Shown here piece after piece: positions 4,375-7,856 of a DNA stretch of 14,960 nt. Numbering within the stretch: position 1 is the first letter of the stretch; every line of letters begins with the position of its first letter. The notes under the pieces are model-generated. The model made no database searches and had not been told where the DNA came from. It was given only the letters and a program-made list of their open reading frames with translations. The position numbers and the translations under genes were made by a program. The stretch spans positions 1 to 14,960 of the forward strand of contig WJIO01000432.1 of the NCBI GenBank assembly GCA_014730235.1, in the 5' to 3' direction. Source of the DNA: Candidatus Poribacteria bacterium. GTDB taxonomy: Bacteria > Poribacteria > DTPJ01 > WJIO01.

Positions 4375-5337
4375 TCAAATTATTTCCACACTTAACCCTG
4401 AAGAACCAAATTTTATACCGCGTTTGCCTAAAAAATCCATAACCTCATCAAAATTTGGTATACCCGAACGCCCACCTAATTTGGTACATTTCAGGGCAGA
4501 TACAGCGGAAGAAAACAAAGCTAATTGCCGCAGGTTCCAGCCATGTAAAAGCCCTACAATATATGCCCCATGAAAAACATCACCTGCGCCTGTGGTATCA
4601 ATCACATTTACATCAAAAGCCGGTGTGTGAAAATCATCATCAGCAGTTACTGTGTAGCAACCGTCCTCACCCAGAGTTTCTACAAACACACCGGGGCCCA
4701 TTTTGAGGGCTTCTTTGCCTGCTTCTTTCAAATCGGATAATCCAGTTAATCCCTTAGCAAAGCCTTTTCCGGTGATCAACACATCAACATATTCTATAAG
4801 CCTGCGGGTATTTTCCCCGACGCTTCCACTGGTTTTACTTCCATCGTAGGTAACAGTTTTCCCCGCTTCTTTCATCCACTTAGCAGCCTGAAGGGCTGCA
4901 TCGTAATGAAAACCCTCAAGATGAAGATAATCGGCAGAAATTATATAATCTTTATCCAATTCATCTACATGTAGTGGCTTTCTGCTGATATTACCGACAC
5001 CACAGAATGTGCGCTCTCCCGTTTCCGCATGGACATGGACGACTATCACCTGATCATCAGGTCCATCACGTTTAACTAAATGTGACAAATCTACCCCTGC
5101 GTCAACCATAGATTCCAGTTTAATTTCAGCCGATTTATCCATTCCAGCCGTTCCGATAAATCCTACATTTGTGCCTAATTTTGCGGCTGCAACCATGGCT
5201 GTTCCTACAGGCCCTCCACCGTCAAATCTAAATTCATCAATCCGCGTTCCACAATCCCAAGTGGGCATGTCTTTCAGACGCAATAAAACATCCAATGTGG
5301 CCATACCCAGACCTACAATTTGCAGATCATCCGCCAT
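4375..5337 (-). CDS. PfkB/ribokinase-family carbohydrate kinase
   Basis: A 320-residue ATP-dependent sugar kinase of the PfkB family (ribokinase, fructokinase, 2-keto-3-deoxygluconate kinase and relatives). Seen: the N-terminal strand IVGLGMATLDV; the sugar-binding GGGPVGTA (40-47); the nucleotide-site ETLGEDG (220-226); and the C-terminal signature DTTGAGDVFHGAY (247-259), with catalytic base Asp253 and the anion hole. Length is normal. AGGAG nine bases upstream supports the start. The gene begins 13 bases after the isomerase gene and ends operon C. Dehydratases that make 2-keto-3-deoxy sugar acids and a KDPG-type aldolase nearby make 2-keto-3-deoxygluconate a plausible substrate. A ketose from the adjacent isomerase is equally possible. 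Its last codons lie within the right arm of the nested inverted repeat. Confidence 0.9.
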   Translation of the reverse strand: MADDLQIVGLGMATLDVLLRLKDMPTWDCGTRIDEFRFDGGGPVGTAMVAAAKLGTNVGFIGTAGMDKSAEIKLESMVDAGVDLSHLVKRDGPDDQVIVVHVHAETGERTFCGVGNISRKPLHVDELDKDYIISADYLHLEGFHYDAALQAAKWMKEAGKTVTYDGSKTSGSVGENTRRLIEYVDVLITGKGFAKGLTGLSDLKEAGKEALKMGPGVFVETLGEDGCYTVTADDDFHTPAFDVNVIDTTGAGDVFHGAYIVGLLHGWNLRQLALFSSAVSALKCTKLGGRSGIPNFDEVMDFLGKRGIKFGSSGLSVEII

Positions 5338-5350
5338 CTTTTAATACTCC

Positions 5351-6802
5351 TCAGTCCACAATAATTGGTTTAATATCCAAAAATTTACATGCCTCAAGCA
5401 AAGCTTTGGTCTGGTTACCATGTATCATGCTGGCATGATGAATAAATCCCTCTTCCACCAGAACGCGATACAGCTTATCATGGTCTTTTACCTCTACCCA
5501 TGACCATGTTCCGGCGAGGGTTTCATCCGATGGTATTATTTCTCCGGTAGTGATAAGCATCTTCCATTCGTTGTCGTATTCTGCAAGCCTGCATAACGTC
5601 ACGATTCCCGGTTTTATCTGGAATTGAGCCAAGCCAGCCATAGCGTCCCGATCATCCACAGGCAATTCACCTTTCATATCCCGTCTGGAGCGCAGAGATG
5701 TTTTTTGTGGATCTTTTGCCAGACAGACCGGTGCGTTTCCACAATGCCATGCCAAAAGCTGATTCGGTTTATCCCGGTGTTGGATAGTCCAGTCAATGAA
5801 ATGGGGAACAGTTTTACCCATTGCAGCCTGATAGTTGATCATCATGGTCAGAGCCCCAAGTATATCAGTTTCGCAGGCTGTAACCATGCCTTTTTCACTT
5901 AGTCGCCCATACAATGCACATACTGAAATACCCATAATTCGCTGTATAGATGGCCAGCATTGAACACCCATAGCGGAAAGCCTGTTGCTGTTCCAGAATT
6001 CCATCAACGCGAGTTCCAGTTTAGCCGAATTAATTATATATTTATCGCTGACAGTGATCTCAGCATAGCTGTTTTTAATATCTTCAACTGTTTCCTGTAC
6101 TGCCGGATCATCGTCAAGATATTTTTTTGCGTTATCTACTATATCACTCAGGTTGGCGTAGATTACGTTTTGACCGAAGGATTTTATTAGCGCAGCTTCG
6201 TCGTAACCCACAGTTTCAAATGTTGTGGGACGTACCCCAACCTGTCCTAAACGAGCACCTTTCATTCCCTTCACCACTGCTACAGCCCGGACAAAATTTT
6301 CTACCTCATCTTTAAATTCAGGTTCATCCGGGAAAAACAGCCCGGCATAATGGAAAGCTATCTTTCGGCGATAAAGCCCGGAAGCCATAGAGAGATTACC
6401 GCAGTAAGAATCCGAAACACGGCTTAAACCCGGATCATCAACTCCCGGCGGTTCTTTGGTAGCATACAGCAAAACAGGCACTTTAAGCTTTTCTGCCACC
6501 TTGCAGGCTGAACGTTCATCCCCAAAGTCCAGGGGACAAAGGATCAATCCATCAATTTTTTCCCGCATGAAATATTCAGCCACAGCTTCACCTTCATCCA
6601 GAGTATTGACTGTGCCGTTTGGTGTATAACCATTTTCGGGATCAAGACTTTTCCCATCTAGTGAAGGTTCTGGAACAACTACTTCCATACCGGGGATTTC
6701 ACCAAAGGCTTCCAGACTATCATTCCGCATTTTTTCACACCAGGATGTATATCGAAAACGGAAAGACGGTACAAAACCAATTTTAACTTTTACATCACTC
6801 AT
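5351..6802 (-). CDS. L-fucose/L-arabinose isomerase family protein
   Basis: A 483-residue cytoplasmic aldose-ketose isomerase-like protein. It is shorter than E. coli FucI (about 590) and nearer AraA length. Seen: a Rossmann-like N-terminal half with IDGLILCPLDFGDE (83-96); RLGQVGVRPTTFET (184-197); QCWPSIQ (281-287); CETDILGALTMM (310-321), matching the family segment with a metal-binding acidic residue (Glu311/Asp313); AWHCGNAP (351-358); and FIHHASMIHGN near the C-terminus (453-463), with His455/His456 as the likely metal or catalytic His. The start follows GGAG by six bases. It lies 12 bases after the unknown gene and 13 before the PfkB kinase, so an isomerase-then-kinase step is likely. 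The sugar is unknown; members of this family act on fucose, arabinose and other pentoses or hexoses. Confidence 0.82.
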   Translation of the reverse strand: MSDVKVKIGFVPSFRFRYTSWCEKMRNDSLEAFGEIPGMEVVVPEPSLDGKSLDPENGYTPNGTVNTLDEGEAVAEYFMREKIDGLILCPLDFGDERSACKVAEKLKVPVLLYATKEPPGVDDPGLSRVSDSYCGNLSMASGLYRRKIAFHYAGLFFPDEPEFKDEVENFVRAVAVVKGMKGARLGQVGVRPTTFETVGYDEAALIKSFGQNVIYANLSDIVDNAKKYLDDDPAVQETVEDIKNSYAEITVSDKYIINSAKLELALMEFWNSNRLSAMGVQCWPSIQRIMGISVCALYGRLSEKGMVTACETDILGALTMMINYQAAMGKTVPHFIDWTIQHRDKPNQLLAWHCGNAPVCLAKDPQKTSLRSRRDMKGELPVDDRDAMAGLAQFQIKPGIVTLCRLAEYDNEWKMLITTGEIIPSDETLAGTWSWVEVKDHDKLYRVLVEEGFIHHASMIHGNQTKALLEACKFLDIKPIIVD

Positions 6803-6814
6803 TTCATTCTCCTG

Positions 6815-7738
6815 TTATTCCTTGCTTTCGGGATAAGAATTAAAATCTACAATATAATTCCACCAGTTATTAAGCTTGTCATTTGTCCTGCCGGGTGCTT
6901 TAGGAAGATGCTTAAGCCACCATTTATGATGCTCCCGAATGCCACCATTTCCCCATTCAGCGCAGTTGACAAGACGTTTTTTGCCTGTAAGGTTTGGATA
7001 GTTAAGCCAGTCGTCGCAGGTACTCCATACCTGGGCTTTACTTCCCCATTCGTAGTCTTTTACGCTGTTAGGTGCAAAATGCACGTTTCCGCAGGAGGCT
7101 TTACCCGGTGCAATCTTATCATATAGTGTAAACCTGTTCCATGCGTGGGTTTCCTCTGGCTCCCAGCTTCCGTATACATGCCGCATAATAGATTCAGTAC
7201 GATGACCGAAATCCTCCAGCATTTCACCCACACCTCTTTCATAATTAAAACCTATAATTATGAAAATTTTTGAGCAGTCAATATCAGGAACAGGTGAAGA
7301 ATTACAGAAATATGAACCCTTGCCGGCCATAATTGATTCCCAGTAACCCATATACGGCGCGCCAAAAAGCCATACTTCATCAATTTCATCTTTTTCAACA
7401 AGCTCATCCAGTTTGTAATCGGCAATTATGGCTTTGTAATCAACGCCATCGGGTTCATGCCAACCGTTCCAATCTTTATAGCATTTCATGTAGCCTTCGT
7501 CGGTATACTGAAACCCGTCAATCTTCACAGGAAAAACATCAGCATCAATCCAATGGGTAATTTGATGTTTGACATATCCGCCGCTGCATTCTTCCAGGTC
7601 ATCGATGTATATTTGTGCCAGCTTATTCGGATCGTTCCACCCACAGACCTCATGCAACCTTCTGTTTTCTTCAGATTCTATGATCGGGTCGTAGTTAATT
7701 ACCATCACCCTGACATTCAGATTTTCTTCAGATTCCAT
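6815..7738 (-). CDS. Trp- and Cys-rich protein of unknown function, probably exported
   Basis: I do not recognise the family. From the ATG at 7738 (AGAGGA five bases upstream) the protein has 307 residues, about 16 of them Trp and eight Cys (32, 51, 86, 145, 155, 216, 241, 259). Likely conserved landmarks are DEVWLFGAPYMGYWES (120-135), GFNYERGVGEMLEDFGHRTES (163-183, given as a landmark), NVHFAPNS (218-225) and the C-terminal EHHKWWLKHLP (269-279). The many Cys suit an exported, disulfide-bonded protein, yet this start gives no signal peptide. Directly upstream, in another frame and after a strong GGAGGA site, is a hydrophobic segment that would supply a lipoprotein signal if one base were gained in a T7 run (next entry). 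The true start may therefore be 7809 with a frameshift. It heads operon C, ahead of the isomerase and kinase, so a role in binding or processing a saccharide outside the membrane is a guess. Confidence 0.7.
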   Translation of the reverse strand: MESEENLNVRVMVINYDPIIESEENRRLHEVCGWNDPNKLAQIYIDDLEECSGGYVKHQITHWIDADVFPVKIDGFQYTDEGYMKCYKDWNGWHEPDGVDYKAIIADYKLDELVEKDEIDEVWLFGAPYMGYWESIMAGKGSYFCNSSPVPDIDCSKIFIIIGFNYERGVGEMLEDFGHRTESIMRHVYGSWEPEETHAWNRFTLYDKIAPGKASCGNVHFAPNSVKDYEWGSKAQVWSTCDDWLNYPNLTGKKRLVNCAEWGNGGIREHHKWWLKHLPKAPGRTNDKLNNWWNYIVDFNSYPESKE

Positions 7739-7749
7739 GCTATTCCTCT

Positions 7750-7809
7750 CTACCAAAACACTACTGCAACCAAAAAAATTATTAGAACTATTATAAATAT
7801 TATTCGCAT
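7750..7809 (-). CDS. 19-codon hydrophobic reading frame: frame-shifted lipoprotein signal peptide or micropeptide
   Basis: The frame encodes MRIIFIIVLIIFLVAVVFW and then TAG. It has the best ribosome site of operon C, GGAGGA five bases before the ATG. Its stop codon runs into the AGAGGA site of the next gene, which starts 11 bases later. Codons 11-13 cross a run of seven T (7778-7772 on the minus strand). Gaining one base there, or a -1 ribosomal slip, changes the reading to MRIIFIIVLIIFFGC-SS (or FLGC) and joins it in frame to the 307-residue protein. That gives Met-Arg, a hydrophobic core and Gly14-Cys15 as a lipobox. I favour a broken or slippage-controlled signal peptide over an independent micropeptide, but the sequence alone cannot decide. 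A base-calling error in the T run is also possible. Confidence 0.5.
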   Translation of the reverse strand: MRIIFIIVLIIFLVAVVFW

Positions 7810-7856
7810 TGGCTTCCTCCAACCTAATATTAACATATTTGCCGTATTATTAAAAC

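Follow-up and report, generated by a model that had tools for sequence, protein, structure and literature searches.

A lipoprotein signal and the protein it most likely once exported lie in separate reading frames in a Candidatus Poribacteria genome

Introduction

When a short hydrophobic reading frame with a strong ribosome site stops just before a gene, is it a peptide in its own right, or the export signal of the downstream protein, parted from it by a single base? The question is raised by a locus of a Candidatus Poribacteria bacterium (assembly GCA_014730235.1), within a stretch of 14,960 nucleotides (contig WJIO01000432.1) that we call the window. An earlier note, made from the letters of this DNA alone, had offered programmed frameshifting, on/off switching by slippage of a T run, a recent mutation, a sequencing error and a translated micropeptide as possible answers. 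We find that the layout is a real feature and a displaced lipoprotein signal; most likely it reflects a lost connection between signal and protein and not a means of recoding.

Leader and body in the window

All features of the locus lie on the minus strand. The leader ORF (7750..7809) opens at ATG 7809-7807, runs for 19 codons (MRIIFIIVLIIFLVAVVFW) and closes at TAG 7752-7750, combining a signal-type charged residue with a hydrophobic core. Its SD, GGAGGA (7815..7820; read from the sequence, the 5-nt SD core by script), stands 5 nt before the ATG, and the minus-strand sequence in this way bears out the description of a GGAGGA-driven 19-codon hydrophobic frame ending at a TAG before the next gene. 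That gene (6815..7738) encodes the 307-residue protein referred to here as the body; it begins at ATG 7738-7736, 11 nt beyond the leader TAG, and its reading frame is intact and differs from that of the leader. The body start has an SD of its own, AGAGGA (7744..7749), placed just after the leader stop and 5 nt ahead of the body ATG, a detail absent from the earlier note.

Inside the leader is a run of seven T (T7, 7772..7778), reading U_UUU_UUG, where a one-base difference parts the signal core from a lipobox. Right after the run the body frame reads GGT TGC AGT AGT (G-C-S-S) and continues through VLVERNS to the body Met; this lipobox remnant and linker (GCSSVLVERNS, 7739..7771), directly upstream of the body start, aligns with the FGC...M region of the sister sequence described below. 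The window shares with bacterial lipoproteins (Sec signal, lipobox, signal peptidase II), the kind to which the body's own relatives belong, the positive residue, the hydrophobic core and the G-C-S-S after the core, but differs from them in that core and Cys are in separate frames. No single open frame contains both, as the core ORF stops at 7750, and the body frame that holds the Cys (7768-7766) has only a hydrophilic extension upstream, so that no one-frame substrate of signal peptidase II is encoded here. What had been described as a complete lipobox after the T run is present as far as G-C-S-S in the body frame is concerned, but with F or L at -2, F at -3 and G at -1 the motif is permissive rather than ideal.

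Such an arrangement is hard to obtain from base composition. Shuffling the leader bases gave a hydrophobicity of at least 4.0 without a stop in 6 of 100,000 shuffles; in 0.7% of shuffles the body frame was open and had a lipobox no more than about 10 residues away. The same genome was sampled as stretches totalling about 561 kb, 544 kb of it readable, and among the 6,873 ATG ORFs of 12-40 codons in these 544 kb the leader (KD 4.04) is the most hydrophobic; it is also one of six short ORFs there that combine a KD of at least 2.8 with an SD match of at least 5 nt. The shuffles and this genome-wide comparison of short ORFs both uphold the earlier view that a split match of this kind is unlikely by chance.

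Signals in homologues of the body

Going by the titles of the matching records, the body family is spread over Poribacteria, Armatimonadetes, KSB1, Phycisphaerae and Chloroflexi. Outside the Chloroflexota the majority of close homologues carry an in-frame signal peptide, several with a lipobox, signal peptides being assigned by hydrophobicity and by eye rather than by a trained predictor. In the same phylum, at 72% identity, the homologue from genome G057 (L003/L010) begins MSGQFIGAVALLLAVAGCATTSRIQDNDTRMSK and reads on in one frame, a lipoprotein by its sequence, with the in-frame signal LLLAVAGCATTS and the lipobox VAGC. The KSB1 homologue L059 likewise starts in frame (MKHILILILVCTLLFCFGCSK), with LLFCFGCSK and the lipobox CFGC, and further in-frame lipobox-type signals are found in L057 (LVSC), L031 (TAAC) and L054 (LTGC). 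No hidden out-of-frame leader was found in the signal-less homologues L044 and L046. Homologues from the Chloroflexota (L074, L076-L103 and L165) are mostly without a signal peptide.

A tree of 71 sequences, which leaves aside additional homologues from the Chloroflexota and two other phyla, places the window and its closest relative, L002, as sisters (support 100/95), with L003 next (90/93). It contains 32 sequences with a signal, 37 without and the 2 that are split, and the alignment of homologues that the earlier note had suggested as a check thus returns in-frame signals in 32 of 71, among them the lipoprotein at 72% identity. The family has exported and apparently cytoplasmic branches. 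On this tree the signal state changes five to six times, at least four of the changes being forced by well-supported branches; the location of the protein is therefore evolvable and its change recurrent.

A different break in the sister sequence

The closest relative, in genome G001 (L002 in the tree), belongs to the same taxonomic order as the window and is 74% identical. Its leader, MKNMMLLTLMTAITMFGCIP followed by a stop, includes the lipobox and is out of frame with the G001 body; the leader ATG overlaps the stop of an upstream HIT-family gene (ATGA; the HIT-like name comes from that gene's sequence), and 19 nt lie between leader stop and body ATG. The ATGs of leader and body are 82 nt apart in G001 and 71 nt apart in the window, which amounts to opposite shifts, and the frame breaks before the lipobox in the window and after it in G001. 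The Cys lies 27 nt (9 codons) ahead of the body Met in the window, against 28 nt (9 codons and one base) in G001. A search with a joined G001 N-terminus, built solely for that one search, gave a match that reaches position 7780 of the window and takes in the lipobox, read in the body frame. SD sites precede the body starts of both sequences, and the T7 run is absent from G001. The split is known from these two genomes, one assembly each, and their two leaders are alike in charge, hydrophobicity and FGC (in different frames), not otherwise in sequence. In our reading the pair would descend from one ancestral lipoprotein whose linker was nine residues long, the split having followed through two different indels.

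A signal uncoupled from its protein

The explanation that we regard as moderately probable, judging from sequence comparison, is that a lipoprotein signal has been uncoupled from its body, which would now be started at 7738 and be mainly cytoplasmic. The body would descend from an exported lipoprotein, and export would have been abandoned or made optional, a loss as we infer it, either in the ancestor of the pair or separately in each lineage. In the window signal and body would have been parted by one base before the lipobox, at the present-day T7 run, and in G001 by a break that lies after the lipobox and shifts the frame the opposite way; some nine codons beyond the Cys, the body would by then have possessed a Met from which translation could start. 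Translated from ATG 7738 via its own SD, the body would probably now be made mainly inside the cell, and ribosomes finishing the leader at TAG 7750 may restart 11 nt on, such coupled re-initiation possibly forming part of body translation. Traces of lipoprotein might conceivably arise by slippage on the T run, a step that remains unsupported.

The earlier identification of the leader as a displaced lipoprotein or export signal is strengthened by the in-frame signals of close homologues and by the separate, different break in the sister. Of the options it had named, a mutation after which a cytoplasmic form is made from 7738 fits best, but the word 'recent' is unsupported, since the split is present in both sisters. 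At the same time the leader is undecayed, with a strong SD, the top hydrophobicity and no stop, which would be odd if it were the mere relic of an old split. With both leaders still intact, the two breaks should be fairly recent, or else the leader has been retained as a coupler or micropeptide. Counting against a cytoplasmic body is its retention of all eight cysteines common in exported relatives. Cysteine content proved indecisive as a sign of export, as the signal-less homologue L012, encoded directly after what we take to be the C-terminus of an aldehyde ferredoxin oxidoreductase, has eight too.

Alternative explanations

It is conceivable, if rather unlikely, that selection maintains the two-ORF layout, with the leader acting as a membrane micropeptide or translation coupler that became fixed before the two lineages diverged and that in G001 takes the form of a short lipopeptide. 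In both sisters the hydrophobic leader is indeed undecayed and well started (by the SD in the window, by the ATGA overlap in G001), the body starts separately, and the pair forms one clade; however, the limited likeness of the two peptides speaks against this, and two sequences are too few for a selection test. We would also call it improbable that in this order the signal ORF has been kept since the pair's ancestor as a working leader, be it membrane micropeptide or coupler, for a body moved into the cytoplasm, or that a small fixed share of the body is made fused to it, which would place the protein in two compartments. The window resembles translationally coupled leader ORFs in that a short SD-led ORF ends 11 nt before an SD-led start, but differs in that its leader looks derived from a signal peptide and its coupling is putative. 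A search of the literature on dual localisation or split lipoprotein signals found no close case.

Contingency switching, in which the T run would gain or lose a base within the population and so toggle between a lipoprotein and a cytoplasmic form, is decidedly unlikely. A homopolymer of seven bases does lie exactly between signal core and lipobox, and the downstream start would supply product in the off state. However, seven bases is short for a contingency tract, and both this T7 and a downstream start that yields protein when the tract is off set the window apart from homopolymer phase variation as it is known. The sister G001 moreover has no T run and is broken elsewhere, and elsewhere in the sampled genome seven-base runs keep a stable frame. 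Known examples of homopolymer phase variation are the poly-C of fliP and the poly-G of pldA in H. pylori (PMC11768039), where, as in the window, homopolymer length sets the frame.

Programmed -1 frameshifting or transcriptional slippage on U_UUU_UUG, yielding a set share of lipoprotein, is very improbable. The codons ATT TTT TTG do hold the heptamer in the 0 frame, in the X_XXZ_ZZN layout common to dnaX and IS-type -1 sites, and a -1 slip would give ...IIFLGCSS, a usable lipobox. The likeness to dnaX seen in the earlier note holds for this letter layout and for nothing beyond it. The site belongs to a weak bacterial codon class: a final U or C marks the efficient U motifs of E. coli, and the motif U_UU.U_UU.G is listed as efficient for a eukaryotic system only (PMC4066793). 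Downstream of T7 no stimulatory hairpin better than those of shuffled sequences was found (z 0.33 and -0.06), and no SD-like sequence was found 10-14 nt upstream of the slip site. Nor is the site conserved, as G001 needs the opposite shift and G057 is in frame. A further point against slippage here is that bacterial selection against A/T runs is evident mostly at nine (PMC1088944). Among the options first listed for this locus, programmed frameshifting is thus an unsupported one.

The least likely explanation, hardly credible in our view, is an assembly or sequencing error that conceals an ordinary lipoprotein gene with a different true run length, which would suit a single draft assembly in short contigs (a few to tens of kb, suggesting short reads) and the existence of in-frame relatives, but runs against the intact neighbouring genes of the window, the split in a sister genome, and the A7/T7 runs across the 544-kb assembly sample, which are in frame in 62 of the 63 cases scoreable by clear coding on both sides, the one exception resembling a gene junction.

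If the uncoupling of signal and body is correct, a protein has apparently been caught moving from outside to inside the cell, with its signal persisting as an ORF of its own, and two sister lineages display different breaks of signal from body. The locus would then offer a test case of how proteins change compartment and of whether a signal sequence that has lost its protein comes to serve as a leader peptide. Automated gene calling would probably miss the leader here and yield an ordinary cytoplasmic protein.

Other broken genes

Further broken frames were noted. In L018 an out-of-frame hydrophobic N-terminal stretch (MGARKALFAAAAIAAIAVLIAVTG...) lies upstream of 5001, before the body; this sequence was left out of the count of split genes, as its contig is of low coverage and there is an in-frame TAG inside the body. 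L017:5001-5895 is a homologue whose body is itself spread over two frames (query residues 10-110 and 112-306). A second split signal from the same genome as the window (L126, G000:C383; minus strand, about 14109 onward in reverse-complement numbering) was rejected as a parallel case, being a TonB-receptor pseudogene: an SD-led signal peptide ORF is followed by a truncated plug-like domain in a different frame and then by more broken frames of a decayed TonB-dependent receptor gene.

The body protein and its neighbours

The body has no sequence match in Pfam, NCBIfam or the PDB, and together with its homologues it makes up a large family that has neither a name nor a Pfam or NCBIfam model. Its AlphaFold2 model is confident (pLDDT 96), and nearly all of the structural matches listed for it are metzincin metallopeptidases, all of them weak (Foldseek E about 1e-3 and TM about 0.3; VIA Z 7.2, rmsd 4.4 over 167 residues). 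The HExxH zinc motif is absent from the 307 residues, and the residues invariant in the family are H179, E182, H220 and E121. A metzincin-like fold, as the model suggests, is to be taken as a lead only. The gene neighbours in G001 and G057 differ from those in the window, where the body is followed after 12 nt, on the same minus strand, by a gene for a protein with an L-fucose isomerase C-terminal domain (5351..6802) and further downstream by a PfkB-family sugar kinase gene (4375..5337), both likely in the same operon.
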